Of a stretch of DNA of 49,880 bases, positions 26,636-47,207 are shown piece after piece (the first letter of the stretch is position 1; every line of letters starts with the position of its first letter). The notes beneath the pieces were generated by a model. It did no database searches and had not been told where the DNA came from. It was given only the letters and a program-made list of their open reading frames with translations. The DNA is taken from positions 1-49,880 of the forward strand of contig NZ_JAUSCC010000096.1 of assembly GCF_030651745.1 (NCBI RefSeq). The letters run 5' to 3'. Origin of the DNA: Methylophaga sp. Its GTDB lineage: Bacteria > Pseudomonadota > Gammaproteobacteria > Nitrosococcales > Methylophagaceae. Made by a program: the position numbers and the translations under genes.

Positions 26636-26636
26636 G

Positions 26637-27721: not shown

Positions 27722-27723
27722 TC

Positions 27724-28728: not shown

Positions 28729-28785
28729 CGCGGCTGAGCATATGCCCGTATAATTAGTGCCACTATTATGAAGACTGAGGTAAAC

Positions 28786-29277: not shown

Positions 29278-29296
29278 AAAATAATTGCATGAACAC

Positions 29297-29326
29297 GCTA
29301 AGCCGGTATATTCCGGCTTAGCTTTT
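29297..29326 (+). terminator. Terminator after cytochrome c gene
   Basis: Perfect 10-bp inverted repeat GCTAAGCCGG / CCGGCTTAGC with a 6-nt loop and TTTT, 19 bp after the stop codon. Confidence 0.9.
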
Positions 29327-29368
29327 GAGATAAATACCCAAACAATACTTTTAGAGTTATTAAGCCAA

Positions 29369-29394
29369 ATGCTGAAACGATTATCGTCTAGCAT
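29369..29394 (+). promoter_or_regulatory. Leader hairpin upstream of mrpA
   Basis: ATGCT pairs with AGCAT, and inside it ACGA pairs with TCGT, with a GAA/CT internal loop and a TTA end loop. It ends 23 bp before the mrpA ATG, which has only a weak ribosome-binding site. A role in translation is possible but unproven. Confidence 0.35.
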
Positions 29395-29417
29395 CGACAG
29401 GGATCACACCAGCCGCC

Positions 29418-32237
29418 ATGAGCTTACTCAGTTTTAATCTCCCCCTTGCCGCCTTATTGCCATTTTTTGCAGCACCTTTTGCTGCATGGGCCACCCGCTA
29501 CAATAGATTAGCCTCAGCCTGGGTAGCTGGTTTAACCACTTTGCTGACCTTGGCACTGCTGTTCCCTTCCATGACATTTATCTTTGCCGGCGAAACCATT
29601 ATTCAACAATGGTCCTGGTTGCCATCGATCGGTTTTAATATCGCCTTCCGACTGGATGGTCTGGCACTGTTATTTGCCCTGCTGATTTTGCTGATTGGAC
29701 TACTGGTCATTATCTATGCCCGGTATTACTTGTCGGCAAAAGATTCCATGGGCCGTTTTTACGCCTATATGCTGATGTTTATGGGCTCAATGCTGGGCAT
29801 TGTGTTATCGGAAAACCTGCTTCAACTAGTAGTGTTCTGGGAACTCACCTCCATTACCTCATTCCTGCTGATCAGTTACTGGCAACACCGCCAGGATGCA
29901 CGCCAAGGTGCACGCATGGCACTTGCTGTTACAGGTGGGGGCGGATTAGCTTTGCTGGGTGGCGTGTTACTGCTCGGTCATATTGTCGGCAGTTATCAGT
30001 TAACCGATGTATTGGCATCGGGTGATTTGATCAAAGGCCACGACTTATATCTGCCAACCTTAGTATTAATTTTGCTTGGTGTGTTTACCAAGTCTGCACA
30101 GTTTCCATTTCATTTCTGGTTACCGCACGCGATGGCGGCCCCAACGCCAGTTTCGGCTTATCTGCATTCAGCCACCATGGTTAAAGCCGGTATCTTTTTA
30201 TTAGCCCGCTTTTTCCCGGCTTTATCCGGTACTCCGGAATGGGTCTGGCTAGTCAGTTCCGCCGGGATGATTACCTTATTGCTAGGTGCTTACGTCGCTT
30301 TATTCAAGCATGATTTAAAAGGTCTATTGGCTTACTCAACGTTGAGTCATCTGGGTCTTATCACGCTGCTGTTTGGTTTTAGCAGTGAGCTGGCGTTGGT
30401 TGCCGCCATTTTCCATATCATCAATCACGCCACCTTTAAAGGTTCGCTGTTTATGGTTGCCGGTATTATCGACCATGAATCCGGTACCCGTGATATGCGT
30501 AAGCTTAACGGTCTGTTCAAAATGATGCCGCATACCGCAGTTCTCGCCATGATTGCGGCGGCCGCGATGGCTGGGGTGCCATTGTTAAATGGTTTCCTGA
30601 GTAAGGAAATGTTCTTTGAACAAGCTATCAGTGCCTCGGGAACACCACTGGCCATTTGGACGATTCCGGCATTGGTTACACTCGCTGCCATTTTCTCCGT
30701 CGCTTATTCACTGCGTTTTATTCATGATGTGTTTTTCAATGGCGAGCCAATTGATCTGCCGAAAACACCGCATGAACCACCCCGCTTTATGAAGATTCCA
30801 GTCGATATTCTGGTGGTGCTCTGTCTGTTGGTTGGTATTGCCCCGATGTATTTAATCAGCCCTATTCTGACGGTTGCTGTTGCATCGAGTCTGCAAACGG
30901 CCGCACCAGAATTCAGTCTGGCCATCTGGCATGGTTTTAACGTGCCTTTATTGATGAGTTTCATTGCCTTGGTATTAGGTGTGGCGGTGTACACAGTCCG
31001 TCATCGTTTATTCGCCTGGAATGAAAAAGGTCTGCACAGCATTGATGGAAAAGCCGTTTTTGACTGGTTGTTAAGAAAAATTACCCGCTTATCGAAAAAA
31101 GTCACCGATGCCTTTGATCAAACTACCTTGCAACCCGCTGTCACCTGGGTAATTGGCGGGGCCTTGGTGTTAAGTATCACGACTTTCTTCCAGTTCAACT
31201 CACCATTACTCGGCAACCGAGTGATGATGGAAGCCGATGTCATTACTTTCCTGATGTCTGCCATTCTTATCGTTGCCAGTGTGCTGACGGTAATACTTCA
31301 CCATAAACGACTGGTCGCCTTGATCACCATCGGTGTAGTCGGCCTGATTGTCGCTTTGGGTTTTGTGAAGTTTTCAGCACCGGACTTGGCTTTGACGCAG
31401 TTATCGGTTGAGGTAGTCACCATCGTGTTGTTATTGCTGGCCCTGTTCTTTTTGCCACAACACACACCGCAGGAACGCAGCTATATTCGCTTTACTCGGG
31501 ATGGCGTTATTTCGGTCTCCGCCGCAGTTTCGGTGTTCTTTTTGACCATGGCTGTATTGAGTCGTGACTATTCGCCTATATCCAACTTCTTTATTGATAA
31601 TGCCAAACCCGGTGGTGGCGGTACCAATGTGGTCAACGTGATTCTGGTTGATTTCCGTGGCTTTGATACCTTAGGTGAAATCGCCGTATTGGCATTAGCA
31701 GGTTTATGCGTATTTGCCATGCTGGAAGGCTTGAAACTGGTAGCACCATCCAAAGACGTCGATGGTCTGGCGTGGAGTCATGATCCACATCCACCAATTA
31801 TGCAGACCTTGACCCGCTTATTATTCCCGTTAATGCTGATGGTAGCGGTATTTATCTTCCTGCGTGGTCATAACCTGCCAGGTGGCGGTTTTATTGCCGG
31901 TCTGATTGCTTCGGTTGCCCTGATTTCACAATACCTTGCTAACGGCATTGACTGGACTAACGAGCGTTTGAGAATCGATATGCATCGGGTGATCTGGATT
32001 GGTTTATTAATTGCCACATTAACCGGTGTGGTATCGATGCTGATTGGTTACCCGTTCCTGACAACCGCCTTTACTTATCTGACTTGGCCGGTTGTCGGCA
32101 AATTTGAAGTGGCCAGTGCAATAGCCTTTGATTTAGGGGTGTTCCTGGTTGTGGTGGGTGCCACGGTAATGATTCTGGTAGAGCTTGGCAAACTCAGCCA
32201 TGCCTCGCATCACATCAAATATGAGGAAGTGAACTAA
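29418..32237 (+). CDS. mrpA: Mrp-type Na+/H+ antiporter subunit A, fused to MrpB
   Basis: Largest subunit of the multi-subunit cation/proton antiporter, related to Complex I NuoL. The 939 residues hold about 20 TM helices. The antiporter core (about 120-400) shows [46 protein letters not shown] and [16 protein letters not shown]. The C-terminal part contains the MrpB domain ([19 protein letters not shown], about 815), so the operon has no separate mrpB; this is the A'-type arrangement. First of six genes; the ATG has only a weak SD. Confidence 0.95.
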
Positions 32238-32629
32238 TGGAGTGGCTAATTGCCAGTGTCATTGCCGTTATGACCGGTTGTGGCGTGTATTTAACGCTGA
32301 GAGCCAGAACCTTCCCGGTGGTATTGGGATTAACCATGCTCGCCTATGCGGTAAATGTGTTTTTGTTTGCCATGGGTCGTTTACAAGTCGGCTTACCTGC
32401 CGTTATCGATCCTGCCGCTGCCGGGTACACTGATCCTCTGCCACAAGCCTTAGTGTTAACCGCCATCGTTATTGCTTTTGGTATGACCGCATTCCTTATC
32501 GTATTGGCATTAAAAGCGCGCAGCGAACTGGGTAATGATCATGTTGATGGGCTGCATCGCTCCGCCGATGAACGCAAAGCCCGTAAACATAAATCGGCAA
32601 AATCTGATTCTGAACGGAGTGCATCATGA
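32237..32629 (+). CDS. mrpC: Mrp antiporter subunit C
   Basis: NuoK-like 130-residue subunit with three TM helices. FPVVLGLTMLAYAVNVFLFAMG and DPLPQALVLTAIVIAFGMTAF are typical MrpC segments. The C-terminal tail is charged. It overlaps mrpA by one base (TAATG) and mrpD by four. Confidence 0.95.
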   Translation: MEWLIASVIAVMTGCGVYLTLRARTFPVVLGLTMLAYAVNVFLFAMGRLQVGLPAVIDPAAAGYTDPLPQALVLTAIVIAFGMTAFLIVLALKARSELGNDHVDGLHRSADERKARKHKSAKSDSERSAS

Positions 32630-34152
32630 GTCCGTTCACCATTCTGCCAATATTGTTGCCATTAATCGGCGGCATTTTGATGCTGATAGCTCGTCCAGCT
32701 GGCATTCAGACACAACGTATCTTAAACCTGATATTAGTCAGCTTACTGGTGGGCATCAGTCTTGTCAGTTTCAACCTGGCAAGCAGCGATATTCAGCAAG
32801 TGGTCTTGCTCGGTAACTGGCAGGCACCATTTGGTATTGTGATTGTGCTGGATCGCTTATCGGCGATGATGTTGTTGCTGACATCCCTGCTCGCCCTGGC
32901 AGCCTTATGGTATGCAATACGCACTGACACCGATAAACAGGGACAACATTTCCATGTGTTGTTCCAGATGCAGCTGTTTGGCCTCAACGGCGCATTTATG
33001 ACCGGTGACGTGTTCAATCTGTTTGTGTTCTTTGAAGTGCTGCTACTCGCTTCTTACGGTTTATTGCTCCACGGTGGTGGTCGTTTGCGTACTCGCGCAG
33101 GTCTGCATTATGTGGTGATTAATCTGGTAGGTTCGACGCTGTTCCTGTTTGCCGTCGGCACGCTTTACGGCATTCTCGGTACGCTGAACATTGCGGATAT
33201 GGCCGTTGCAGTACAAACCGTATCTCCGGAAGATCAAGGCATTGTCGCTACCGCGGCGGTGTTACTGCTGGTGGTATTTGGCATTAAAGCCGCGATGTTT
33301 CCTCTGTATCTGTGGTTACCCGGCGCGTATGCCTACACCTCGGCACCTGTTGCAGCACTATTTGCCATCATGACTAAGGTTGGGCTGTATTCGATTATTC
33401 GCGTACACGGCACCATCTTTGGTGAACAGGCCGGTGATCTGGCATTTGTGCATGTGCAATGGGTGTTACTGCTTGGCTTAATAACTTTGGCCTTGGCTGC
33501 GTTAGGTGTACTGGCCGCACGTGCATTACGCCGTCAGGTAGCGTATTTGATATTGGCTTCGGTCGCGACCTTGATGATTGCCATCGGTATTAACACCGAA
33601 TTAGCATTAACGGCAACTTTCTACTATTTGATACATTCCACCCTGCTCGGTGCAGCAATGTTTTTAATCGCTGATGTGATTTTCAGAGGTCGAGGCACCT
33701 ATGCGGATTCATTGACCAAGGCTATTCCAATTGATCGTCCGATAATTGTGGGTTCCGTTTTCATGGTGCTGGCGATTGCCTTAACCGGTATGCCGCCATT
33801 ATCAGGCTTTTTCGGCAAGGTAATGATTCTCAACTCAGCCCTTACGCATCCTTGGTTTGCGGCCATATTATCGGTGATTCTGGTAGCCGGCTTGTTGATG
33901 ATTGTGGCAGTTTGTCGTTCCGGTTCATTGATGTTTTACAGTGTCAAAAAAGATAAATCGGAACAGGCATCACCGTTAAATAAATCTGCATTTGTGGCAG
34001 TGATCATGCTGATGCTGGTCAGTCCGTTAATGGTAGTTTTTGCCAAACCCTTGAATGATATGAGCGCTCAAATTGCTGCACAGTTATACGATCATCAGGC
34101 TTATATTGATGCCGTATTAACGACGCTTCCTCATGGAGAAAACGGCAAATGA
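32626..34152 (+). CDS. mrpD: Mrp antiporter subunit D
   Basis: NuoM/N-like proton-conducting subunit of 508 residues with about 14 TM helices. Diagnostic stretches are TGDVFNLFVFFEVLLLASYGLLL (with the conserved Glu), AAMFPLYLWLPGAYAYTSAPVAALF and GMPPLSGFFGKVMIL. It overlaps its neighbours by four bases at each end. Confidence 0.96.
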   Translation: MSPFTILPILLPLIGGILMLIARPAGIQTQRILNLILVSLLVGISLVSFNLASSDIQQVVLLGNWQAPFGIVIVLDRLSAMMLLLTSLLALAALWYAIRTDTDKQGQHFHVLFQMQLFGLNGAFMTGDVFNLFVFFEVLLLASYGLLLHGGGRLRTRAGLHYVVINLVGSTLFLFAVGTLYGILGTLNIADMAVAVQTVSPEDQGIVATAAVLLLVVFGIKAAMFPLYLWLPGAYAYTSAPVAALFAIMTKVGLYSIIRVHGTIFGEQAGDLAFVHVQWVLLLGLITLALAALGVLAARALRRQVAYLILASVATLMIAIGINTELALTATFYYLIHSTLLGAAMFLIADVIFRGRGTYADSLTKAIPIDRPIIVGSVFMVLAIALTGMPPLSGFFGKVMILNSALTHPWFAAILSVILVAGLLMIVAVCRSGSLMFYSVKKDKSEQASPLNKSAFVAVIMLMLVSPLMVVFAKPLNDMSAQIAAQLYDHQAYIDAVLTTLPHGENGK

Positions 34153-34646
34153 TGTTTCGGCGAATATTTCCCCATCCGTTACTGACCCTGATTTTATGGG
34201 CTATCTGGTTATTACTGAATAACAGTATCGATCCGGGACATATCGTGCTGGGTGGTGCTTTAGCGGTATTTATTCCATGGCTGACATCCAGTTACTGGCC
34301 GGAGCAAATTATCATTCGTCGGCCATGGATGCTGGTTTTGTACATTCTGAAAGTCTTGTATGAAATTCTGGTTGCCAACGCGGTGGTGGCCAAGTTGATC
34401 CTCGGCCCACAGAAAAATCTCAATCCCGGCTTTTTACATTATGAATTACAGTTAACCAGCCCGGTCGGTGTCAGTCTGTTAGCCAATACCATCTCATTAA
34501 CACCGGGTACTGTCAGCTGTGATCTCAGCGAAGACCGTCGCTATTTACTGATCCACGCCCTGCACATTGATGATGTGGCAGAAATCAAAGCTGAAATCTT
34601 CCACAAATTCGAAAAGCCATTGCTGGAGATCTTTGTCATATGCTGA
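34149..34646 (+). CDS. mrpE: Mrp antiporter subunit E
   Basis: The 165-residue subunit has two or three N-terminal hydrophobic helices and a cytosolic C-terminal domain with the family motif LANTISLTPGTVSCDLSED. It overlaps mrpD by four bases and mrpF by seven. Confidence 0.94.
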   Translation: MMFRRIFPHPLLTLILWAIWLLLNNSIDPGHIVLGGALAVFIPWLTSSYWPEQIIIRRPWMLVLYILKVLYEILVANAVVAKLILGPQKNLNPGFLHYELQLTSPVGVSLLANTISLTPGTVSCDLSEDRRYLLIHALHIDDVAEIKAEIFHKFEKPLLEIFVIC

Positions 34647-34909
34647 ATCTGGCCTTATCAATTGCTTTTGTGATGGTCGCCATTGCGATCCTGCTGAGTT
34701 TTATCCGGCTGATTATCGGCCCTAGCGTACCGGACAGGATCCTGGCGCTGGACACCTTATATATCAACACCATTGCCCTGCTGATTTTGCTGGGAATCTA
34801 CCTGAAAAGTGCGCTGTATTTCGAAGCGGCACTGTTAATCGCCGTAATGGGCTTTATGGGTACGCTGGCGCTAAGCAAATATCTGCTGCGCGGCGACATA
34901 ATGGAATAG
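34640..34909 (+). CDS. mrpF: Mrp antiporter subunit F
   Basis: The 89-residue subunit has three TM helices; RLIIGPSVPDRILALDTLYINTIALL is the family signature. The start lies within the end of mrpE. Confidence 0.94.
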   Translation: MLNLALSIAFVMVAIAILLSFIRLIIGPSVPDRILALDTLYINTIALLILLGIYLKSALYFEAALLIAVMGFMGTLALSKYLLRGDIME

Positions 34910-34917
34910 AGGCAATT

Positions 34918-35241
34918 ATGCTCGAGTGGACATTAGCAATTTTGATTTTACTGGGAGCGTTTTTCACGCTGGTCGGTTCGATTGGTTTATATAAACTTTC
35001 CGATTTCTATATGCGATTACACGGCCCAACCAAAGCCAGTACCCTAGGTGTCGGTGCCATTCTGGTCGCTTCAGCCATTCATTTCAGTCTAAAAACTGAT
35101 GGTGTCAGCTTGCATGAAATTCTGGTCACGCTGTTTTTGTTTATCACCGCGCCGGTAAGTGCTCATCTGATGGCCAAAGCTGCCATTCATATCAAAGTTA
35201 AACAGGTTGAACGCACCCGCCAGCTTGATAAAAAATCTTGA
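34918..35241 (+). CDS. mrpG: Mrp antiporter subunit G
   Basis: The 107-residue last subunit has three TM helices and the motif [27 protein letters not shown] positively charged C-terminal tail follows. GAGG precedes the ATG after an 8-bp gap from mrpF. Confidence 0.94.
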
Positions 35242-35252
35242 TAGAAAAAAAC

Positions 35253-35720
35253 GTGACCGAAGCTCGACAACCCCAAATATGGGTCGATGCCGATGCCTGT
35301 CCAGTAGTGATAAAAGAAATTCTGTATCGCGCTGCCACTCGCACCGAGACTCATACCACCTTTATTGCCAACCACAGTTTACGATTACCACCCTCGCCCT
35401 TTCTTAAATTCCAGCAAGTGCAATCCGGGTTTGATGTGGCCGACAATGAAATTGTCGAACGGCTGCAAAAAGGCGATTTAGTGATTACCGCCGATATTCC
35501 CCTCGCCGCTGAAGCCATCGAAAAAGGTGCGTTAGCATTAAATCCCAGAGGCGAACTCTATACCACCGACACCATCAGTGCCCGCCTCACCATGCGTAAT
35601 TTTATGGAAACGATGCGCAGTAGTGGTGAACATATGGGTGGCCCCGCCACCTTTAATCAACGCGACAGACAAGCGTTTGGTAATCAATTGGATAAGTGGT
35701 TGCAGAAGGCTAAACGTTAA
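35253..35720 (+). CDS. yaiI: YaiI/YqxD family protein (UPF0178)
   Basis: Cytosolic protein with a PIN-like fold in this family; the function is not established. Strong matches to E. coli Yai[21 protein letters not shown] near the N-terminus, [30 protein letters not shown] and [14 protein letters not shown]. The GTG start gives 155 residues; a TTG at 35238 overlapping the mrpG stop is an alternative adding five residues. Neither has a clear SD. It probably rides on the mrp transcript. Confidence 0.9.
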
Positions 35721-35763
35721 AGATTACGCCTCAGTGAGTTTCCACCAGCTTTCTATGCTGAAT

Positions 35764-36369
35764 TTATAACGGCTTAATAGCCACCTTGCGAAACTTGATC
35801 GCACCTGCTGCGTGTTGCAGCGTGATCGGCCCTTCGGTGAATAGACCGTTATTAAGCTGTGAAACCTTCTCGCCATTAAGCACTACAGTAATGTCCCGCC
35901 CTTTAGCCGTAATTTCAAAAGTGTTCCATTGACCAGCAGCTTTGGGCATCGGATTTACTTCAGCGAAAAGCACAATCCCACCGGTGCCATAAGACTGGTC
36001 CGGACGCTGGTCAAAAATATTCACCTCATAGCAAGACCGTAACGTGATTTCCGAAGGATCCTGGCAGCGAAGAAAAACCCCGCTATTGGCATCGTCACTC
36101 GACCAAAACTCAACATATAGCTGGAAATCCTTATAGTTGTTCTGAGTAACCAGATGTGCAGCATCCTCCCCCATGAGTTTGTCAGCAACAATCGCCCCGT
36201 CCTCCACCCGCCAATTGCTCTCACCAACACGATTCCACTCACTGCCGATAGTCTTACCGTCGAATAAAGAAACCCAGCCAGATTCAGTTTTCCCCGTCGC
36301 CCAGACACCGGCGGTTGCAATGGAAAGTCCTGCGGCAATAACAGCTGCGAGTTTTGATACACGTTGCAT
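35764..36369 (-). CDS. Secreted DUF1080 (3-keto-disaccharide hydrolase-like) protein
   Basis: The 201-residue product has a signal peptide (about 1-25, ending GVWATG) and a DUF1080 concanavalin-like domain: GWVSLFDGKTIGSEW, VEDGAIVADK, DANSGVFLRCQ, QWNTFEITAKGRDITVVLNGE and a final GAIKFRKVAIKPL. Family members bind or cleave glycans, some hydrolysing 3-keto-glycosides. AAAGGA lies upstream of the ATG. It is convergent with the yaiI-like gene and is the last ordinary chromosomal gene before the cassette array. The 265 bp between it and the first attC hold nothing I can name. Confidence 0.88.
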   Translation of the reverse strand: MQRVSKLAAVIAAGLSIATAGVWATGKTESGWVSLFDGKTIGSEWNRVGESNWRVEDGAIVADKLMGEDAAHLVTQNNYKDFQLYVEFWSSDDANSGVFLRCQDPSEITLRSCYEVNIFDQRPDQSYGTGGIVLFAEVNPMPKAAGQWNTFEITAKGRDITVVLNGEKVSQLNNGLFTEGPITLQHAAGAIKFRKVAIKPL

Positions 36370-36634
36370 TTATTTTTCCTTTAGGGGGACGATAACTCTG
36401 TCGTTGGTTTGATGGCTGCTTTTCTACTTTGCTTTGCTAAGTCTAGTTGTCGGTGGATTAAAGATACTACTTGATGATTAAGTATTTATTAGCCGAACAA
36501 CTCATTTTTACACTGGCTCAAAATGTCGTACTGCAGCTCTTGAAAAATCTAGCCAAGACTGTGGGTTTGTTGTTCCGTATCACGACCGGAAATGCAACCT
36601 ACACTGATCTGATTTCAACATTCTGGGCAGTCTG

Positions 36635-36682
36635 ACCTAACGCTGCATTGACGCGCTTGTTGCGTTCATTGTTTTATTAGCG
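36635..36682 (-). other. attC site A (left end of array)
   Basis: On the minus strand it runs from CGCTAAT, through an imperfect stem ACGC-AACAA-GCGCGT, to GTTAGGT, which matches GTTRRRY exactly. The first box is degenerate relative to RYYYAAC. The methyltransferase stop codon (TAG) lies inside the last box. Confidence 0.65.
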
Positions 36683-37344
36683 CCAATGAAAATGACTGAC
36701 GCCGGTTTATTGGTTTCGGGGTGCATAGGCTCACGCATCTCGAGTAATTGCAATCCGTTAGCTGAAAATAGGGTCACCCAGCTTTCAAGTGTCCTGAAAA
36801 ACCACGGTGCTGGATCAATAAAGTCTGAGCCAAAACCAGCCCAAGAGCCCTCCCGCCAACCGTCGACATAAGGCAGATCGCCCGCGACAACAACAGGGTG
36901 AAGTGTTTGCACGATAAACACCCCGCCCAGTTTCAGATACGCCGGTACAGCACTAAACAGCGCCTCTACCGATTCCTTTCCAAGAAGCGAAAAATTGCAG
37001 ACGACAACATCGAAAACGTCTCTAATCACACCGGCCGCGACAGCTTCGTAAGATGCAATCAGAAAATCCCCTCCGCCAGCAGTTTTGGCCTGCTTAATGA
37101 GTTCAGGCACTACATCGACCCCGACCAAATGCGGTACTTGGGGCGCTAATTCACGGATGAGCCATCCCTCGCCACAGCCAATATCGAGCACAGATTCAGG
37201 AGAATGACTCAACACAGCTTCGACGATTGCTTTGTCTGTTATCAGCTTTCGGCTTTCGATTTGCCCACCACGCACGGCCGCAGTCCACGGCCCCGCATTC
37301 TTCGTCCACGAATCTACAATTTTTTCGTCACTATAGGGTTTCAT
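36637..37344 (-). CDS. Class I SAM-dependent methyltransferase (cassette gene)
   Basis: The 235-residue cytosolic protein has motif I VLDIGCGEGWLIREL (about 51-65), an acidic residue after VGVDV, and VVCNFSLLGKESVEALF. It resembles small-molecule methyltransferases of the UbiE/Methyltransf_11 type; the substrate is unknown. The start overlaps the kinase-like gene by four bases (ATGA), so one cassette carries two coupled genes, which is less usual than one. The last about 13 residues (NKTMNATSASMQR) are encoded by attC site A. Confidence 0.85.
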   Translation of the reverse strand: MKPYSDEKIVDSWTKNAGPWTAAVRGGQIESRKLITDKAIVEAVLSHSPESVLDIGCGEGWLIRELAPQVPHLVGVDVVPELIKQAKTAGGGDFLIASYEAVAAGVIRDVFDVVVCNFSLLGKESVEALFSAVPAYLKLGGVFIVQTLHPVVVAGDLPYVDGWREGSWAGFGSDFIDPAPWFFRTLESWVTLFSANGLQLLEMREPMHPETNKPASVIFIGANKTMNATSASMQR

Positions 37345-37892
37345 AGAGCAGTGGCGGACGTCAGGTTGAGAATCTCATTGCAAAGTTCATCGACCGGCCT
37401 ATCGGAGTTCAAACGCATAATCGGGCAAGTCAATCCCGACATCCAGCCCTCATGGAGATCAAAACTGCGAATTGGAGCCTTCGCATAATCGTAGCTCGCT
37501 GCCCAGCTCATAAATTCGAGATGGTGATCGTGCATGTCGCCCCCAGGTAGAATCCGATCACCATATCGTTTTTGCTCTCTCTCAGATATTCGAGCCATCC
37601 GAACCGACGGATCAAGATAAAGGAATACAACGAGCGTAAAGTGATGCAGTAGTGGATCTCCCCACTTACAGACCGAGCCAGACAAAACCCAATGTTCTTT
37701 ACGCTGAATGTCGTGCTCGATCATCTTTATGCGTTCTGATGGATCACGCCTGTGTGTAAATGGTGGTTCACTTGTATGCCAATAGTACGAGTCTGTATCG
37801 AGATGGTAACCACCAATCTCTCTCGCGAGGTGAGCGGCCAGTGTTGAGGTCCCTGAACCTGATGCTCCAAAGATGTGAATGCGATGGTTCAT
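37341..37892 (-). CDS. P-loop kinase-like protein (cassette gene)
   Basis: The 183-residue product resembles adenylate-kinase-like P-loop proteins. The N-terminus is HIFGASGSGTSTLAAHLA: a Walker A loop in which the usual Lys is Thr. I recall related proteins with GSGTTT, so this may be a subfamily trait. Later come DTDSYYW, EHWVLSGSVCKWGD, VVFLYLDPSVRMARISERE (lid-like Arg residues) and LNSDRPVDELCNEI. The cassette junction lies 15 bp before the ATG. It is coupled to the methyltransferase; the substrates of both are unknown. Confidence 0.8.
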   Translation of the reverse strand: MNHRIHIFGASGSGTSTLAAHLAREIGGYHLDTDSYYWHTSEPPFTHRRDPSERIKMIEHDIQRKEHWVLSGSVCKWGDPLLHHFTLVVFLYLDPSVRMARISEREQKRYGDRILPGGDMHDHHLEFMSWAASYDYAKAPIRSFDLHEGWMSGLTCPIMRLNSDRPVDELCNEILNLTSATAL

Positions 37893-37894
37893 GA

Positions 37895-38383
37895 CTAGAT
37901 GCCTAACGCCGAGCTCACCGTATCTGTGTGCAGCGAATTGTTAAGTTTGATTTCCATAGGCTGATAAGCCAAACCTGCCAACTCACCTGCCTCACCCTTG
38001 CACTCAAAGCCGTACTTCTCATATGCGGGAATTGAGGACAGGGACGCTCTTACAGTTACAGTATCAACCTTCGCATAATCCAGAACTGATGAAATCAACT
38101 TCCTACCAATCCCCTCCTTCTGATGTTCAGGACTAACAAAAAGCATTGCAATGTGTCGGCCTTCCTTGAGCTCGATTACGCCTTCAATGTTTCCATCGTT
38201 GTCGGCGACAAGCATCACATTGTCGCCATTCATTCTGTCAAGAAAGGCATTGCTCTCAGCAATTTTCGAAAAGGTTGCAATCCCTTCTTCAGACAATGTG
38301 TCAGCAACAGACTGCAAAAACGAAGCCATGCAAGTGGCAGTTACAGCAGCCAGATCCTTCTCTTCCATTTTTCTGACAATCAC
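37895..38383 (-). CDS. GNAT-family N-acetyltransferase (cassette gene)
   Basis: The 162-residue protein has the GNAT acetyl-CoA loop in FVSPEHQKEGIGRKLISSVL (about 80-99; Q-x2-G-x-G/A type) and the C-terminal IPAYEKYGFEC. GNAT enzymes are common cassette cargo and can acetylate antibiotics, amino acids or proteins; the target is not visible. GTG start with GGGGAG upstream; an ATG five codons later is the alternative. The C-terminal 15 or so residues are encoded by attC B, and the stop codon lies in the next cassette. Confidence 0.85.
   Translation of the reverse strand: MIVRKMEEKDLAAVTATCMASFLQSVADTLSEEGIATFSKIAESNAFLDRMNGDNVMLVADNDGNIEGVIELKEGRHIAMLFVSPEHQKEGIGRKLISSVLDYAKVDTVTVRASLSSIPAYEKYGFECKGEAGELAGLAYQPMEIKLNNSLHTDTVSSALGI
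37901..37946 (-). other. attC site B
   Basis: On the minus strand ACTTAAC (matches RYYYAAC) leads into a stem GCT...CAC / GTG-AGC and ends with GTTAGGC (matches GTTRRRY). At 46 bp it is shorter than the usual 57 bp or more. Confidence 0.8.
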
Positions 38384-38398
38384 CGAACTCCCCCGAGT

Positions 38399-38427
38399 AC
38401 TTAACGCCGTGCTTGGTCTTGTTAGTT
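38399..38427 (-). other. attC site C, shortened
   Basis: Only 29 bp on the minus strand, from AACTAAC to GTTAAGT. It shares CCAAGCAC and GGCGTTA with site D but lacks the roughly 24-bp central hairpin found there. It looks like a deletion derivative. Confidence 0.6.
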
Positions 38428-38430
38428 TGA

Positions 38431-39096
38431 TTACTGGTCAAACCTAAAAATTGCTTTAAAGCCACATTGCACGCGCTTTTGAGTGACTTTGTGTATGCTG
38501 GTATAGAATTCATCAAAGTGCTTTTTATGGCGAATGACAGAATCCATGTTTTCCATATTGTTTTCAATAAAGTGAAACAGCTGATTATTAAGCACGGAGC
38601 TTTCTACGCTAATATTATCCAACGACTTGTTCACGGCCTCATAGTCTTCAGAAAACACATCTGTGAGTTTTACATTCCAAAATTCCAGTTCGCGGTGTGA
38701 CTTATATAAACTTCGTCTAGCTTGATACAAATGACTCCAAACGTTATTTAAATGCTCAATACGCTTTGCTGATATGTCTTTGCTCTCCACTAGTAATCCG
38801 GGAACTGGACATATGTGGTTGTACTGGAACAGCAACTCATGCAAGTGCTCTTCGATTTCATCTATTGAAGCAACGTACTTTTTAGCAGCCAAGTAGGCAT
38901 CTTCTTTACGCTTACTACTTAGCCATTGAAAATAAGTAAAAAAGCCGAAGGCAAAACCAAAAAAAGTTACAAGAAGCGTACCGATATCAGTCCACTTCAC
39001 GCCTGAGAATATGTTTTTATGCTCAGTAGCGCCAATACAGTATCCGATCACTAATAAACATAGCGCTACAAACAACCCAATTCCATATTTCATCAT
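38431..39096 (-). CDS. Two-TM protein with helical cytosolic domain, unknown (cassette gene)
   Basis: I do not recognise a family. The 221-residue product has TM1 (about 5-22), TM2 (about 37-57), then a charged boundary SSKRKEDAYLAAKKY and about 150 mostly helical residues rich in Glu, His and Asn. TM placement suggests both ends cytosolic. It fills its own cassette, immediately after the MMKYG start. Two neighbouring cassettes encode proteins of the same layout, so shared function, perhaps membrane stress or phage defence, is an inference only. Confidence 0.7.
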   Translation of the reverse strand: MMKYGIGLFVALCLLVIGYCIGATEHKNIFSGVKWTDIGTLLVTFFGFAFGFFTYFQWLSSKRKEDAYLAAKKYVASIDEIEEHLHELLFQYNHICPVPGLLVESKDISAKRIEHLNNVWSHLYQARRSLYKSHRELEFWNVKLTDVFSEDYEAVNKSLDNISVESSVLNNQLFHFIENNMENMDSVIRHKKHFDEFYTSIHKVTQKRVQCGFKAIFRFDQ

Positions 39097-39128
39097 TTTT
39101 TAAACTCGAAGTGTTGCAGCTTAGCTCA

Positions 39129-39176
39129 AACTAACGCCGCATTCAGCGGCTTGTCCGCTGCAGTGCTTGGTTAGAA
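39129..39176 (-). other. attC site D
   Basis: On the minus strand TTCTAAC, then a strong hairpin CAGCGG-ACAAG-CCGCTG, then GGCGTTAGTT. Total 48 bp. The second box differs from GTTRRRY at one position. The reading frame of the next gene upstream ends inside it. Confidence 0.8.
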
Positions 39177-39757
39177 GCGCTCATAGCATCCAACTCGCTT
39201 GGATCACGTAAATACATTTTGACTAACTGACGCTTATTGAGGCCTTTGTTGCTAAGCCCTATGTCCTCACGAATTGCTTTGTATAGCTCATCAACAGCAA
39301 AAAGCGTGTTACCGCCAGATTCAGATACTTTCTGAAAATTCAGCTGGGCGTTAATGACTTTCGGAGAGCCCCATAAAACGACATTCGTTTTAAATTCCAC
39401 CATGAAGTCAACAAGCTCCTGTTGTGAGGGCGGCTCAAGCGAGACATTTTCGTTCTGCTCAGACATCATTCTTGCCACCATATCCAAGAAGCCTTTATAA
39501 AGCTCTACCTTTCTGCTCCGGTGAGCCTCTTCAATTTCCCTTTTCTTAATCTGTGCTTGAGTATAGAGCGCTCCTCCGACACCCACTAGAACAGTGGCCA
39601 TTGCTCCGACAACTGCTGCAGACACGGAAGGATTTGCGCTTTCTAGGAACTTCAGCAATCTACCCAGTATTATCCAGACAAAATAGCCCGTCCCAACAAT
39701 TATCCCTATACCGAATATGAATCCAATGGCTTGAGCCAATTTGGGATATTTGTTCAT
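39143..39757 (-). CDS. Two-TM protein with helical tail, unknown (cassette gene)
   Basis: Unrecognised family. The 204 residues show TM1 (about 9-35), TM2 (about 45-66), then a strongly charged helix IKKREIEEAHRSRKVELYKGFLD and a helical C-terminal domain. The final SASNQALQRTSR is encoded by attC D; I recall similar NQALQRT tails on other cassette proteins. The start ATG lies about 15 bp inside the cassette. Function unknown; same design as its two neighbours. Confidence 0.72.
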   Translation of the reverse strand: MNKYPKLAQAIGFIFGIGIIVGTGYFVWIILGRLLKFLESANPSVSAAVVGAMATVLVGVGGALYTQAQIKKREIEEAHRSRKVELYKGFLDMVARMMSEQNENVSLEPPSQQELVDFMVEFKTNVVLWGSPKVINAQLNFQKVSESGGNTLFAVDELYKAIREDIGLSNKGLNKRQLVKMYLRDPSELDAMSASNQALQRTSR

Positions 39758-39766
39758 TTACTTACC

Positions 39767-39851
39767 TTCTAACGCCGCTCAGCACGTGCGTCTTTGTAGT
39801 GGAGGCGAAGCCGCAATGAAAAAGGCGTCGCGGTGACTGGCCTGGTTAAGT
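39767..39851 (-). other. attC site E
   Basis: The longest site, 85 bp. On the minus strand it runs from ACTTAAC (matches RYYYAAC) through internal repeats including GCGGCTTCGCC to GGCGTTAGAA. The best-formed attC of the array. Confidence 0.85.
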
Positions 39852-39878
39852 TTCAGATCCATCAACCATGGTATCGGA

Positions 39879-40568
39879 TCACACCTTTTTGATCATGAGT
39901 TCGAGAAAGTCATCCTGCTGCTGTCCATCGATAAAGCTCCATCGGGCAAGGATGCCCCACAAGAAATTGCCCACGTACTTCACGGGATCATCGGTGTACA
40001 CACTAGAATTCTTTAGCCTGTTGATATTTTCATTTAGAAGCTTGAATGATTGATGGACTCTCGCGTCCTGAATAGCAACATTATTGAGCACATAATTGAC
40101 TTCAGAAGCCAGCAACTCCATTTCGAAAAGCAGGTCCTGTAGGAAGTCATTGCGATTGTTGAGACCATTAAGGACGTCGTACCAGCGTTGCTTGTCATTA
40201 GCATCAAAATACGTCCTGAATTCAACGTGGTCACACAGTTTTTTGGGCAGCTGCGTATCATGCCCCCCCACAGAGCTCCAAAGTAACACTTGAATTACAG
40301 ATTCTTTAAACTGCTGATACTGTTGGCTCAAGTTATCCCGTAGTAATTTTCGGCGCTTAGCCTCTGGATATTGAACAACCAAAGCCCAGAAAAAGAAGCT
40401 TCCCAAGTAAGCGACGCACAAGTTGAACAAAATTGAATTCCCGATGTGCAGTGACTGCAATATCGGTTCTACCCAAGTTCCTTTTAGTGGGGTAATCACG
40501 GGCTCAGAAGCTCCTGAGAAGAGACCGAATGTCGCAATAATGGCGAGAAAGATCAGAAAATACTTCAT
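39879..40568 (-). CDS. Two-TM protein with helical cytosolic domain, unknown (cassette gene)
   Basis: Unrecognised family. The 229-residue product has TM1 (about 3-20), TM2 (about 45-65), then KRRKLLRDNLSQQYQQFKES, a helical region with FLQDLLFEMELLASEVNYVL, and a C-terminal KYVGNFLWGILARWSF. It is the cassette closest to the array's right (5') side, so it would be the most recently acquired if the integrase had been on that side. The start ATG is about 45 bp inside the cassette; GGGAGCATT... lies upstream without a strong SD. Confidence 0.7.
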   Translation of the reverse strand: MKYFLIFLAIIATFGLFSGASEPVITPLKGTWVEPILQSLHIGNSILFNLCVAYLGSFFFWALVVQYPEAKRRKLLRDNLSQQYQQFKESVIQVLLWSSVGGHDTQLPKKLCDHVEFRTYFDANDKQRWYDVLNGLNNRNDFLQDLLFEMELLASEVNYVLNNVAIQDARVHQSFKLLNENINRLKNSSVYTDDPVKYVGNFLWGILARWSFIDGQQQDDFLELMIKKV

Positions 40569-40607
40569 GGTTGCCAGTTTCCCACGACCTGTAATGCTCC
40601 CTTAGAA

Positions 40608-40656
40608 ACCTAACAGCATGTTAGCGAGGCCCTCGGCCACATAAGAATTATTAGCG
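40608..40656 (-). other. attC-like site F (right end of array)
   Basis: On the minus strand CGCTAAT, an internal GGCC-GAG-GGCC hairpin flanked by ATGT/ACAT, and final GTTAGGT (matches GTTRRRY). The first box is degenerate in the same way as site A. It could be a diverged attC or part of an attI remnant. Confidence 0.55.
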
Positions 40657-41042
40657 GGCGGCCTTTTAATTTATGGCCGCTCGTAAACAGGTTTTCTAAC
40701 AAATTGAATTTATGTGTTTTTTTAGCTGCTGCTTTTGGCCAGTTAGTAATAAAAGGCCAATTGAGCTGATTCAAGTGATTAGTCGGGCCGGAATGGCGTT
40801 TAGAAAACGCTGTATTTGAATGGAGAAGTTGGGCCACTAAGTTGGTTTTGTGAGATGACACCGCTTTTGAGAAAAGCGGTATGTGGTGAGAGCAAATTGT
40901 CTGCTGCATGGCTTAGCGTCCGTGGGCCTGTTAATGGACTTTACTTCAGCTTATGTGGCAACAGCAAGTAATCTGCAGATTTAATTTTGCTTGTCATACT
41001 AGATAAGAATAGTAAGTTAACCCGTTTCAATATGAATGATAC
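40657..41042. other. Noncoding, hairpin-rich stretch right of the array
   Basis: There is no convincing gene. Three hairpins are visible: GCGGCC/GGCCGC (40658-40680), GCGTTT-AGA-AAACGC (40796-40810) and CCGCTTTT-GAG-AAAAGCGG (40861-40879). A 99-codon minus-strand reading frame (40610-40909) ends in site F but has an implausible composition and no SD. This is where an attI or integrase would be expected if the array were complete; neither is seen. Confidence 0.5.
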
Positions 41043-41073
41043 AAAAACGCCGACATGAAGTCGGCGTTTTTTT
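41043..41073. terminator. Terminator downstream of the second chemoreceptor
   Basis: ACGCCGAC-ATGAA-GTCGGCGT with A-run on one side and T-run on the other. It ends the minus-strand chemoreceptor gene 27 bp after its stop and can work in both directions. Confidence 0.9.
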
Positions 41074-41099
41074 GGATCATCAGTTGTTGATGAAAATAC

Positions 41100-42800
41100 T
41101 TAAGAAACCTTAAATTGTCTGACCATTTTGCCCAAGGTTTCACTCAACTCTGCAATACGCTGGCTGGCTTCAGCAACTTGCTCTGCGCCGTGGGCGGTAT
41201 CTTCTGAAACCATTTGAATATTTAACACGTTATGATTAATTTCATTAACGACATGATTCTGCTCTTCGGCGGAAGTTGCAATCAAGGTATTCATATCGGT
41301 AATGGCATTGACTGAATGAGTAATTGCATTCAGTGATTCGGTGGCATTTACTGCTTTGGAAACTAATCCCTCAATACTGTTTCTATTTTGTTCCATCGAG
41401 GTCACTGCATGGTCAGAGCCTTGTTGCAGGTTCGAAATAAGGGTTTCGATTTGTTTGGTCGAATCCTGGGTTTTTTGGGCCAGTGACCGTACTTCATCGG
41501 CTACCACAGCAAAACCTCTTCCCTGCTCGCCAGCACGGGCAGCTTCGATAGCGGCATTCAGTGCCAACAGGTTGGTTTGCTCAGCAATGTTTTTGATAAC
41601 CACCAGCACGGTGCCGATATTTTCACTACCTGATTTTAAATCTCTGATAACCGTTGTTGAGGTGTTAATTTCTGAGGCCAATTGATTTATCGATGCCACA
41701 ATTTCGCCAACAACCATACGACCTTTTTCGGAATCTTTACCGCCATTTATCGCTGCTTGAGAGGCTTTTTCAGCATTAAGCGCGACTTCTTGGACCGTAG
41801 CCGTCATTTCGGTAATGGCCGACGCAACCTGGCTGGTTTCATTTTTCTGTTTTGCAACATTCTCATTGGTTGAGCTGGTGACAATCGAAGTCTGCTCGGC
41901 AGCCGTTGATAACTGTTCTGATGCAGACGCAATCCCCACCACCAGACTTTGCAGCTTTTCAACAAAATCGTTGAATGTTCTGCCCATCGCTCCCACTTCA
42001 TCAGTACTGGTGAAATGCATGCGTTTAGTCAGATCATTATCTTTCGCCATCGCACTCAGCGTGTTCATGACTTCTTTAATCGGCGTCACAATATTGCTGA
42101 TGATGATTTTTGAGATAAACACGCCAATGATGAGTGCGGCAGCCGCCATCGCGATTAAGCTGAACAGGCTGGCATTTTGAACCTGTTGAACACCTGCGAT
42201 CGACCGCTTACTGATGTTACCGATAGTGGCTTGCATGCTCTCCAGCGTGATAAACAAATCCGCTTCGATTTCTTTTAACTTATTCTGCTCTTCCGCTGAA
42301 AGATAGCCGCCACCAGACATACTACCGCCACGTTGAATGACTTTTATCGCACTCTCCACGTAGGTTTGGTAATTTTCCTGTTGAGCCACAATTTTGGCAG
42401 TGCTTTGTTCCAGGCTAGCAATGTCTGTTAATAATTCAGGTTGGAGACTTTTATTTTCAGCATCATCCAGGATCGTCAGAATCTCCTGTAGGCCCTGAGC
42501 ATTTTCAATCGTAATATTTTCGATGGCTTCAATGTGACCTTTAATCACATTGCGTGAGGCACCCGATCGGGCATCTGCCAATAGCTCTTGTAAAGCGATG
42601 GTTTTTTTCAGCTGCAGTTGGCTGGTTTGGGTAACACGGCTTTCCAGTGGAATGGCTAGTTCATACATCACATTAAATTCAGCAGAAATATCGTTCATTT
42701 TAACGATGGCCAATACTGCAATCAGGATCTGCATCAAGCCAAGCACGATAACAATACTGAAGATTTTCTTGCCGATAGGGAGGTTGTTAATAAACTGCAT
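41100..42800 (-). CDS. Methyl-accepting chemotaxis protein
   Basis: Chemoreceptor of 566 residues: TM1 (about 13-31), periplasmic helical sensor (about 33-208) with an unusual Gly/Ser stretch [13 protein letters not shown] in the middle, TM2 (about 212-234), a HAMP domain ([20 protein letters not shown]) and the signalling domain with tip [20 protein letters not shown]. No C-terminal CheR pentapeptide. GGAG lies upstream of the ATG. Ligand unknown. It is not close in the sensor region to the other chemoreceptor in the window. Confidence 0.94.
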
Positions 42801-42831
42801 TTGAACTCCGTGGAAAAGTCTTTATAACAAA

Positions 42832-42853
42832 CGCTATTATTAATCTAATAGCG
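42832..42853. promoter_or_regulatory. Inverted repeat upstream of the second chemoreceptor
   Basis: Perfect 8-bp arms CGCTATTA and TAATAGCG with 6-bp spacer, centred about 43 bp before the start codon, in the promoter-like A/T-rich region. A regulator site is possible. The remaining gap (42854-43059) holds nothing else I can support. Confidence 0.4.
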
Positions 42854-43059
42854 GTTGCAAGCGGATTAAGCTTAATTTTTTTTCGAAAATGTATTCAATT
42901 AAATGGCAGTTAATAACTTAAATACTGGTTTAATTGACGCAAAGGTAAAATTGTACAGACATTGTCCTTTGGTTAATTTTTTATTGGGGGATTTTTTGAA
43001 GTGGTTTTTGAAAGCCAGCTTATCTGAAAAACAACTGAACCCTGCCAATAAAACAAACA

Positions 43060-43089
43060 AAAAAACGCCGGCATAACGCCGGCGTTTTT
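43060..43089. terminator. Terminator downstream of amtB
   Basis: ACGCCGGC-ATAAC-GCCGGCGT flanked by A and T runs, 25 bp after the amtB stop on the minus strand. Confidence 0.92.
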
Positions 43090-43113
43090 GTTGGAGCGGT
43101 AACACTGTCAGGT

Positions 43114-44367
43114 TTATTTATCAGAAGTAAACTCCGGATAAGCGGACATTCCACATTCGTTAATATCCATACCTTCCATTTCTTCCTCTTCACTAACCCG
43201 TAACTTGGCGAATTTGTTGATAATCGACAAGACGATGTAGGAAGCGATAAACATCCACGCAAAGGTCACTACTGTACCGATGGTCTGACCAGCAATTGTT
43301 GCATCGGGATTACTGAACAGTACTGCAAAGATCCCCCAGATACCTGCCGTCCCATGCACTGAGATAGCACCAACCGGATCATCAAGCTGCATTTTATCCA
43401 GGAAGATGACAGATAACACCAGCACGATACCACCCACTGCACCGATAATCAGCGCCAGGCCAGGGCTAGGCAGCAAAGGTTCAGCGGTAATGGACACCAA
43501 ACCAGCTAATGCACCACTGATAGTCATGGTTAAGTCTGTTTTACCGAACAGGAATCTAGCCAGTAATGATGCGGCAACCATGCCTGCCGCTGCAGCCATG
43601 TTAGTGTTCACAAAGATTTTCGCTACAGCGTTGGCTTCTTCAATGTTAGCGATTTTTAATTCAGAACCGCCATTGAAACCGAACCAGCCAAACCAAAGGA
43701 TAAACATACCTAATGTTGCCATCGGTAAGTTGGCACCTGGAATCGCATGAACTTCACCGTTTTTACCGTATTTGCCTTTACGCGGACCAATAATGATAAC
43801 GGCTGCCAACGCGGCGGCGGCACCGGCCATATGTACAACGACTGAACCGGCAAAGTCTTGGAAACCCAGTTGATCCAGGAAACCACCACCCCATTTCCAG
43901 TAACCTTCTACCGGATAGATAAAGCCAACCATAAACACAGCAAAGATCAGGAACGGCCACAGGCGCATACGTTCAGCAACAGCACCTGAAACAATCGACA
44001 TGGTCGCTGCAGCAAACACCGCCTGGAAGATAAAGTCAGCCATCGCTGAATAATATGGCGCGCCTTCACCACCCGCTAAAACAGATTCGGCACTGTTGTC
44101 TTCACCCAGGAAGAAATCAATGCCCGGAATCCAGGAGTTCACCGGATCGGCTGGATACATGATGTTATAGCCCACCACGAAATAAACCAGACAGGCAATG
44201 CCATATAACAGCACGTTTTTATTGAGGATTTCGACGGTATTCTTGCTGCGTACCAATCCTGATTCCAACATGGCAAAACCAGCTGCCATCAGCATCACCA
44301 GCGCTGTACACATCAGGAAATAAAATGTGTCCAGCGCATAACTCACTTCAATTACAAGGGTATCCAT
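43114..44367 (-). CDS. amtB: Ammonium transporter
   Basis: Inner-membrane Amt/Rh channel for ammonium. The 417 residues have 11 TM helices. The pore twin histidines are His179 (VVVHMAGAAAAL) and His338 (AISVHGTAGIWG); FVVGYNIMYP, GAVAERM and LWFGWFGFNGGS are also family-typical. There is no long signal peptide. It follows glnK by 9 bp, the classic pairing in which GlnK blocks AmtB when nitrogen is plentiful. The C-terminal tail after helix 11 is cytosolic and ends EFTSDK. Confidence 0.97.
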   Translation of the reverse strand: MDTLVIEVSYALDTFYFLMCTALVMLMAAGFAMLESGLVRSKNTVEILNKNVLLYGIACLVYFVVGYNIMYPADPVNSWIPGIDFFLGEDNSAESVLAGGEGAPYYSAMADFIFQAVFAAATMSIVSGAVAERMRLWPFLIFAVFMVGFIYPVEGYWKWGGGFLDQLGFQDFAGSVVVHMAGAAAALAAVIIIGPRKGKYGKNGEVHAIPGANLPMATLGMFILWFGWFGFNGGSELKIANIEEANAVAKIFVNTNMAAAAGMVAASLLARFLFGKTDLTMTISGALAGLVSITAEPLLPSPGLALIIGAVGGIVLVLSVIFLDKMQLDDPVGAISVHGTAGIWGIFAVLFSNPDATIAGQTIGTVVTFAWMFIASYIVLSIINKFAKLRVSEEEEMEGMDINECGMSAYPEFTSDK

Positions 44368-44376
44368 TGTGAACTC

Positions 44377-44715
44377 CTAAATAGCGTCGTCGCCGGTTTC
44401 ACGCGTTCTGATTCGAACGGCTGATTCCAGCGATGAAACGAAAATTTTGCCATCACCGATTTTTCCGGTTTTGGCACTGGCAGTAATGGCATCAATGGCT
44501 TTCGCCAGATCGTCATCCGCTACGACTAACTCAAGTTTTAGTTTGGGTTGAAAATTAACCGTATACTCCGCCCCCCGGTACATTTCGCTGTGGCCTTTTT
44601 GTCTTCCATAACCTTTTACTTCGGTCACAGTAAGACCTGTTACACCAACTTCATGAGTGGCAGCTCTTACCAGCTCTAGAGCATGCGGGCGAACAATCGC
44701 CGTGATCATTTTCAT
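44377..44715 (-). CDS. glnK: P-II nitrogen regulatory protein
   Basis: Signal protein that senses 2-oxoglutarate, ATP/ADP and uridylylation. The 112-residue chain has the signature YGRQKGHSEMYRGAEY with Tyr51 of the T-loop, the uridylylation site, and the C-terminal TGKIGDGKIFV. CAGGAG precedes the ATG. Pairing with amtB identifies it as GlnK rather than GlnB. A sigma-54-like promoter lies upstream. Confidence 0.96.
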   Translation of the reverse strand: MKMITAIVRPHALELVRAATHEVGVTGLTVTEVKGYGRQKGHSEMYRGAEYTVNFQPKLKLELVVADDDLAKAIDAITASAKTGKIGDGKIFVSSLESAVRIRTRETGDDAI

Positions 44716-44765
44716 TTCTCGCTCCTGTTGATTTAAATGAAATAATTTTTACCCCCACGAAACAA

Positions 44766-44782
44766 TGAAATTTTTATGCCAA
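44766..44782 (-). promoter_or_regulatory. Sigma-54-like promoter for glnK-amtB
   Basis: On the minus strand TTGGCAT-AAAAA-TTTCA matches the -24/-12 consensus TTGGCAC-N5-TTGCA except at two places; one is the G of the -12 GC pair, which weakens it. It is 50 bp upstream of the ATG, where a nitrogen-controlled promoter would be expected. Confidence 0.5.
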
Positions 44783-44827
44783 CAGATTTACTCTAATAAA
44801 AACAAGTATTTGGGAAACTGGTTTGAA

Positions 44828-44850
44828 TAAAAAACGGGAAAATACTCCCG
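44828..44850 (-). terminator. Terminator downstream of the NarX/NarL-type operon
   Basis: On the minus strand CGGGA...(T)CCCG forms a stem with A/T-rich loop followed by six T residues. It sits 109 bp after the response-regulator stop. The 108 bp between hold nothing recognisable. Confidence 0.65.
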
Positions 44851-44958
44851 ATTTCCGCACCGCTACGGATCGGGCGCACCAAAATGGTTCGAGATTGGAA
44901 AGACAGGCATGGGCTAAAGCAGTAAAGCGCGTCACTGCGTTAGTTAAATGTAGAGTGG

Positions 44959-45618
44959 TTACTTGGAATTATTTTGCTGAAACTTCCACACAGCCGCCTC
45001 AAGCCGACTGGTCAAATTGAGTTTTCTGAGCAGATTTTTGATATGCACTTTGACTGTTGAATCAGTAATGCCCAGCTCACGGGCAATCGTCTTGTTATTC
45101 ATGCCTGCCGCAATGCAGTCGAGGATCTGATTTTCCCGCTCCGTTAAACTCGCCGCATCATTGGTATTTCTGCTTTCGGGAAATAGTGCTGCACGGGTCA
45201 GAATATCGGTGAGACGATCCTGAATAATGGTCATGCCTTTGGTGGCTTTGATCAGACTGTCACGCAACTGCTCCGGCTCCATATCTTTCAATAAATAACC
45301 ATCGGCCCCTGCACGTAACGCTTCCAGTAAATCCTCTTCGGCATCTGATACGGTAAGCATTACACAACTTGCCTGAATTTCAGTAGCTTTGAGTCGGCGC
45401 AGTGTTTCCAGCCCATCCATGCCTTTCATATGTAAGTCCAACAGGATCACATCGGGTAACAATTGTTGAGCCAGGGTAATACCCTGCTCGCCGGAATCTG
45501 CCTCACCGACCACTTCAAAGCCTGGATCATCGGAAATCATCTGTCCTACGCCTTTACGGAACAGAGGATGGTCATCTATTAGTAACACGCGAATTTTCAG
45601 GGTCGGTTTATCAGTCAT
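44959..45618 (-). CDS. NarL/FixJ-family response regulator
   Basis: The 219-residue regulator has a receiver domain with DD at 15-16, phosphoacceptor Asp61 (VILLDLHM) and Lys in YLLKD, and a C-terminal LuxR-type HTH (LTERENQILDCIAAGMNNK, STVKVHIKNLLRKL). I chose the ATG at 45618, five bases after the kinase stop, rather than an upstream in-frame start. It is close to NarL and UhpA types; the regulon is unknown. Confidence 0.93.
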   Translation of the reverse strand: MTDKPTLKIRVLLIDDHPLFRKGVGQMISDDPGFEVVGEADSGEQGITLAQQLLPDVILLDLHMKGMDGLETLRRLKATEIQASCVMLTVSDAEEDLLEALRAGADGYLLKDMEPEQLRDSLIKATKGMTIIQDRLTDILTRAALFPESRNTNDAASLTERENQILDCIAAGMNNKTIARELGITDSTVKVHIKNLLRKLNLTSRLEAAVWKFQQNNSK

Positions 45619-45622
45619 CAGC

Positions 45623-47188: not shown

Positions 47189-47207
47189 GGCTTAATGAGA
47201 CACGACT

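Follow-up and report, generated by a model that had tools for sequence, protein, structure and literature searches.

An integrase-less cassette array headed by an attI homologue in Methylophaga: probable loss of the integrase in place and possible cassette exchange in trans

How does a gene-cassette array come to stand in a chromosome with no integrase beside it? The question is raised by a contig of Methylophaga sp. (the window, i.e. the whole stretch of 49,880 nucleotides analysed here). The initial annotation described a one-orientation, minus-strand array without integrase between chromosomal genes, called it a CALIN with six attC-like sites, and named two origins for it: seeding from another integron, or loss of its integrase. 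We find that the region from 36.6 to 40.7 kb is indeed a real cassette array, with all its genes on the minus strand and in a single orientation, between ordinary chromosomal genes. It is likely, in our judgement, that this is an attI-led array whose own intI was deleted, and one of many such arrays in Methylophaga that were shaped by loss of intI in place and by cassette exchange in trans. The genes of the array and its two neighbours are as follows.

35764..36369, minus strand: flanking gene, 3-keto-disaccharide hydrolase family (PF06439, E 6.3e-41), syntenic in M. muralis
36637..37344, minus strand: cassette gene F, methyltransferase (PF13489, E 9.4e-14), overlapping E by 4 bp
37341..37892, minus strand: cassette gene E, P-loop protein (PRK06217 family; NF004861, 243 bits, cut-off 203)
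37895..38383, minus strand: cassette gene D, GNAT acetyltransferase (PF13673, E 9.6e-31)
38431..39096, minus strand: cassette gene C, ORF of 221 aa, no assigned function
39143..39757, minus strand: cassette gene B, ORF of 204 aa, no assigned function
39879..40568, minus strand: cassette gene A, ORF of 229 aa, no assigned function
41100..42800, minus strand: flanking gene, methyl-accepting chemotaxis protein (PF00015, E 4.8e-43), syntenic in M. muralis

The six genes amount to five cassettes, E and F being counted as one two-gene cassette because they overlap and have no site between them. Cassette A resembles the cassette behind the attI of another locus (L134, in genome G024) at 82% over 848 bp, attI included; the homology spans attI, the gene and the first attC arm and then stops, and judging from this alignment cassette A is common to the window and that attI locus as a single unit. 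The ion-channel domain PF07885 occurs in three of 47 relatives of gene A, all within the four weakest. Homologues of gene C at 80-92% are present in Rheinheimera, an Alteromonadaceae MAG, Halomonas, Photobacterium and Pseudomonas, and this distribution across genera fits a shared cassette pool. An observation named initially as speaking against a cassette array, the same fixed order of the six genes in every relative, was not encountered: gene F was found in one of 57 family genomes (at 65%), and genes B and C in none of the 57, a zero that is by itself uninformative as the search had no known-positive genome for control. PADLOC returned only partial or weak matches for two cassette proteins (mad2 to F; VakA, PDC-M51B and mad8 to E), which were set aside as generic similarity, and no match for the other four. 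Rfam at the gathering score gave two tRNAs and nothing else.

Recombination sites were searched for over the whole window, on both strands and with filters off, using an attC covariance model (R1) made from 20 sites at five loci (alignment A3) of other Methylophaga integrons, with no window site in training. The training sites were gathered beside intI by a purpose-written scanner (38 collected, 28 kept, 20 aligned). The stem of their alignment covaries, with 84.1% of cells paired versus 68.2 +- 1.7 when shuffled and at most 39.7% when slid. The first version of the attC scanner returned nothing at its threshold in the window from 35000 to 42000. R1 gave the following.

39767-39851, minus strand: attC of cassette A, 28.0 bits, E 1.1e-4
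39129-39176, minus strand: attC of cassette B, 37.2 bits, E 5.9e-7
38399-38427, minus strand: truncated attC of cassette C, 16.5 bits, E 0.072, with R'' and R' kept and the arms and stem gone
37901-37946, minus strand: attC of cassette D, 36.0 bits, E 1.2e-6, inside the 3' end of D
36635-36665, minus strand: possible degenerate terminal attC, 10.8 bits, E 1.9, unsupported

The highest R1 score outside the array was 15.1 bits (E 0.16). Where a CALIN calls for at least two nearby attC, the window has three with E of at most 1.1e-4 within 2 kb, as scored by R1 and not by the model of IntegronFinder. The covariance check suggested initially, carried out with our own model, thus upheld 37901-37946, 39129-39176 and 39767-39851, showed 38399-38427 to be truncated, and lent no support to 36635-36665 or to 40611-40674. 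The array is a true CALIN whose sites had been miscounted: in place of six attC there are three clear ones, one truncated, one unsupported, and one attI that had been mistaken for an attC. The attC of cassette A has 78-88% similar stretches on plasmids of Halomonas, Salinivibrio, Providencia, Nitrosomonas and others. Those of cassettes B and D overlap or lie within the 3' ends of their genes, and the tails of these two proteins are therefore encoded by recombination sites.

The sixth site, near 40608-40656, has an R1 score of 10.2 bits (E 2.7), and belongs to an element of another kind.

40611..40674, minus strand (cassette-side orientation): attI, R2 59.3 bits, E 2.6e-8, window outside training

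R2 is an attI model built from 43 such sites with the window excluded, and its E-values are rough. The window element is 82.5-90.3% identical over about 62 bp to sites at five loci (L101-L104 and L108), and at L102-L104 the copy stands directly upstream of a complete intI; the attI of a complete integron is accordingly present in the window by homology only. Over 64 copies, window included and L127 dropped for lack of the GTTA end, conservation amounts to 0.91-0.97 per column in the last six bases and stops at GTTA, beyond which it is 0.42. In the established chemistry of integron recombination cassettes are joined at the GTT of attI and attC, and the five cassettes of the window would have been joined behind its attI in this manner. 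A hairpin of 8 bp is present in the element as well: 96.8% of its cells are paired, whereas shuffling gives 94.8 +- 0.4 and sliding no more than 53.8%. Nine cells are altered on both sides, eight of them at one pair, so that the covariation comes mainly from that pair. This conserved hairpin, together with tandem copies 194 bp apart at L143, would suit a dispersed repeat or an RNA leader upstream of the cassettes that is no recombination site. We consider such a repeat or leader improbable, as in five genomes a complete intI stands 163-177 bp away from the element, conservation of the element ends at GTTA, and the attC found behind it are all on its strand (81 of 81; see the survey below).

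No intI was detected in the window when the entire contig was searched by tblastn with six complete IntI proteins of Methylophaga (best E 0.26). The CALIN label holds in this respect too: the neighbourhood is free of an integron integrase, and the adjacent functional intI of a complete integron is absent. A short stretch next to attI nevertheless recalls one.

40697..40802, strand unassigned: probable relic of the intI 5' region, 106 bp by local alignment, the coding part of intI gone

This stretch scores 50 against L103, where shuffled sequences give 22.3 +- 3.2 and none of 200 reaches as high; the scores against L104 (37) and L145 (34) were likewise reached in 0 of 200 shuffles each, and those against L123 and L144 in one of 200 each. 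The remaining three of the eight references (L102, L134 and L126) gave no signal. Probably, therefore, intI was deleted in place. Loss of the integrase at the window is favoured over seeding, since attI is still there along with 106 bp of DNA similar to the intI 5' region. Secondary attG sites have a consensus that is neither attI nor attC. An ordinary CALIN seeded in trans at an attG-like site, with no attI at any time, would agree with a contig lacking an integrase and with the dispersed CALINs reported, in the parts of the publications available to us, for Xanthomonas and Shewanella (PMC12444791, PMC9229058). Its proximal end should be devoid of attI, however, and here the 64-bp attI homologue occupies that end with the intI relic beside it, which argues against a random secondary site and makes this origin quite unlikely. 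Of the two origins proposed initially, integrase loss is thus strengthened and seeding at a random secondary site weakened. An intI split off to another contig by the assembly would also account for its absence, the window being a contig of 49,880 bases and many relatives being in many contigs; yet about 9 and 36 kb of contig separate the array from the two ends, both its flanks are syntenic to M. muralis, and two other genomes carry nine (G013) and eight (G012) attI matches on single 3.1-Mb contigs, so that we hold an artefact of this sort to be scarcely credible.

M. muralis is the closest named relative found; it provides the best match (98%, in the genome collection) to the DUF188 protein of the window, and is syntenic with the window on either side of the array, at 85-86% (25248-36411 and 41058-49290). 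Its intI is a pseudogene with five stops. Neither M. muralis (L001) nor a second locus (L002) could serve as an empty site: other genes sit at the former, and at the latter most of the neighbouring hydrolase gene is gone as well. The matching place in M. muralis (L001:11200-12105) holds ORFs that by eye look toxin-antitoxin-like, and 20 bp there are identical to part of the attC of window cassette A; no attC (R1, E <= 1, default filters) and no attI (R2, E <= 1) were detected at L001, and the place is perhaps a decayed cassette. Taken alone, the window is an ordinary decaying relic. Its copy looks to be in decay because two of the eight attI hairpin pairs are broken (by eye), one attC is truncated, and the intI of M. 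muralis is a pseudogene.

The interest of the locus lies in the rest of the genus, where attI-led arrays without integrase recur with apparently continuing exchange. The integron-integrase family TIGR02249 exceeds its cut-off in six of the 24 genomes returned as the genus of M. muralis (G001); among the weaker matches are broken copies in G014 and G011 (with stops), in G010 (100 residues) and in M. muralis itself. All 23 genomes searched with R1 gave matches at E <= 0.1, and the best E of the weakest genome was 0.0027. With R2, 29 of 57 family genomes yielded 110 attI-like matches; counted by hand, Methylophaga accounts for 88 of them (in 20 of its 24 genomes) and the 33 remaining genomes for 22 (in nine). 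Of these matches 33 belong to the six genomes whose intI exceeds the cut-off, and five of the 33 lie within 300 bp of that intI. The attC sites were then counted at 50 solo-attI loci, namely those among L111-L162, fetched around attI copies without complete intI, that have a kept attI copy (L160 yielded no match; at L145 the first of the tandem copies was retained and the others, which overlap L143, were dropped; L163-L166, fetched for attC or intI pieces, are outside the count). At 38 of the 50, all 81 distinct R1 matches of at least 20 bits lie downstream of attI and on the same strand; the fetched stretches are longer downstream by design, of which the strand result is independent. In the other 12 loci no attC in the fetched stretch reaches 20 bits.

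How these loci lost their integrase can be followed at some of them. Pieces of intI, mostly its first 36-73 residues, lie near attI at nine loci (L101, L123, L126, L134, L144, L145, L147, L149 and L166, where the attI match is weak). At a locus next to an aminotransferase gene (named by eye), full intI (L102), a 5' fragment (L134 and L147) and no intI (L131) coexist, and intI was therefore presumably lost in place there. Two processes would together give the present picture: intI is lost in place with attI and cassettes staying behind, and an integrase encoded elsewhere in the cell may keep exchanging cassettes at such sites.

The second process is suggested by comparison of loci with similar left flanks, in 23 pairs from eight clusters. 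Five clusters of two to four genomes each supply 14 pairs whose left flanks are alignable at 81-93%, through most of 1.4 kb, up to a point no more than 7 nt from attI; no intI was found in the loci of these clusters. The mean identity falls at GTTA from 0.81-1.00 to 0.20-0.39, and the first 150 bp past GTTA match in none of the 14 pairs. Further on homology resumes in 12 pairs (three clusters); of the remaining two clusters, one has only a 380-bp match of unclear kind and the other shows no return within 6 kb. The clearest case is the bioC-bioD locus (neighbours named by eye) of G011, G012, G021 and G022, with flanks 91-93% identical and different cassettes; homology returns there after 3.4-4.2 kb, with a piece of about 100 bp earlier in one. 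Among these four genomes intI exceeds the cut-off in G021 and G022 only. The other three clusters comprise three pairs each: L111, L124 and L128 resemble one another, but their alignment stops 15-65 nt short of attI; L116, L136 and L142 are more diverged (74-78%); and at L112, L125 and L130 no attC was found, one of the three pairs keeping the same first 500 bp, i.e. the same first cassette. Because the shared flank is already without intI, the exchange is most simply read as insertion or excision after the loss of intI, carried out by an integrase in trans, and the comparisons suggest that integrase-less attI sites exchange cassettes in this way.

A possible account, which we doubt, is that all these arrays are frozen relics: whole integrons would have been acquired or relocated several times, each would have lost its integrase, and nothing would have moved since, the differences predating the loss. 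The intI fragments adjoining nine attI copies, the five stops in the M. muralis gene, and the decay of both attI and attC in the window are in keeping with it, but all 14 pairs share an intI-less flank and yet differ behind attI, so that exchange seems to have come later than loss. If exchange in trans is accepted, the genus might possess a distributed integron, in which one integrase serves several dispersed chromosomal attI sites that lost or never had an intI of their own, their cassettes being swapped in trans, and the window would be one such site, now decaying; on this fuller proposal, drawn from genome comparisons, our judgement is evenly balanced.

Compared with known systems, the window resembles CALINs, which are chromosomal attC arrays with no integrase nearby, and differs from them by its leading attI. 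Sedentary chromosomal integrons, of which other Methylophaga have complete examples, likewise carry an attI with cassettes of a single orientation behind it; the window locus has no intI and its array is short. CALINs are common, and the portion of the literature available to us proposes off-target insertion, loss of intI and rearrangement as their origins (PMC8618304); these can be told apart locus by locus here because attI itself is traceable. The description of IntegronFinder 2.0, in the part available, indicates that the default attI search was dropped and that attI is poorly described outside class 1 (PMC9024848). Delta-attI-type cassettes of mobile integrons, according to the accessible part of their description, also carry attI sequence away from its integrase and are recombination-competent in assays; they are, however, mostly short attI fragments replacing attC in an integrase-bearing array, whereas in Methylophaga attI-like sites of about 64 bp head separate chromosomal arrays (PMC12901181). 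As with attG sites, judging from the available part of their description (PMC12444791), exchange in trans would integrate cassettes away from the integrase, but the Methylophaga sites differ in being homologous attI copies. A search of open-licence papers for Methylophaga integrons, and for attI sites that are solo or multiple, turned up no description of attI-led arrays devoid of integrase. Should an integrase still act in trans on the solo attI sites, integron evolution in these bacteria would have a set of sites as its unit rather than a single array, and such sets would escape surveys in which attI is sought only next to intI or never.

Some minor observations concern the attI copies and their surroundings. 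REP elements were considered as carriers of attI and rejected, their motif (at most one mismatch) standing left of attI in three of the 64 copies, one of them exact. Separately, small REP-type transposase genes apparently lie inside several arrays (L108:12296-15538, L151 and L158, by eye). The two attI-like copies at L143:1473-1731, in genome G004, resemble a small attI-bounded unit. Seven attI-like matches occur in G028, a genome of the family that is not among the 24 of Methylophaga, and the dispersal of attI may therefore extend beyond the genus. Within the array of L103 (13415-13613), about 4 kb from the intI-linked attI, a second attI copy is accompanied by some 140 bp of intI 5' region.
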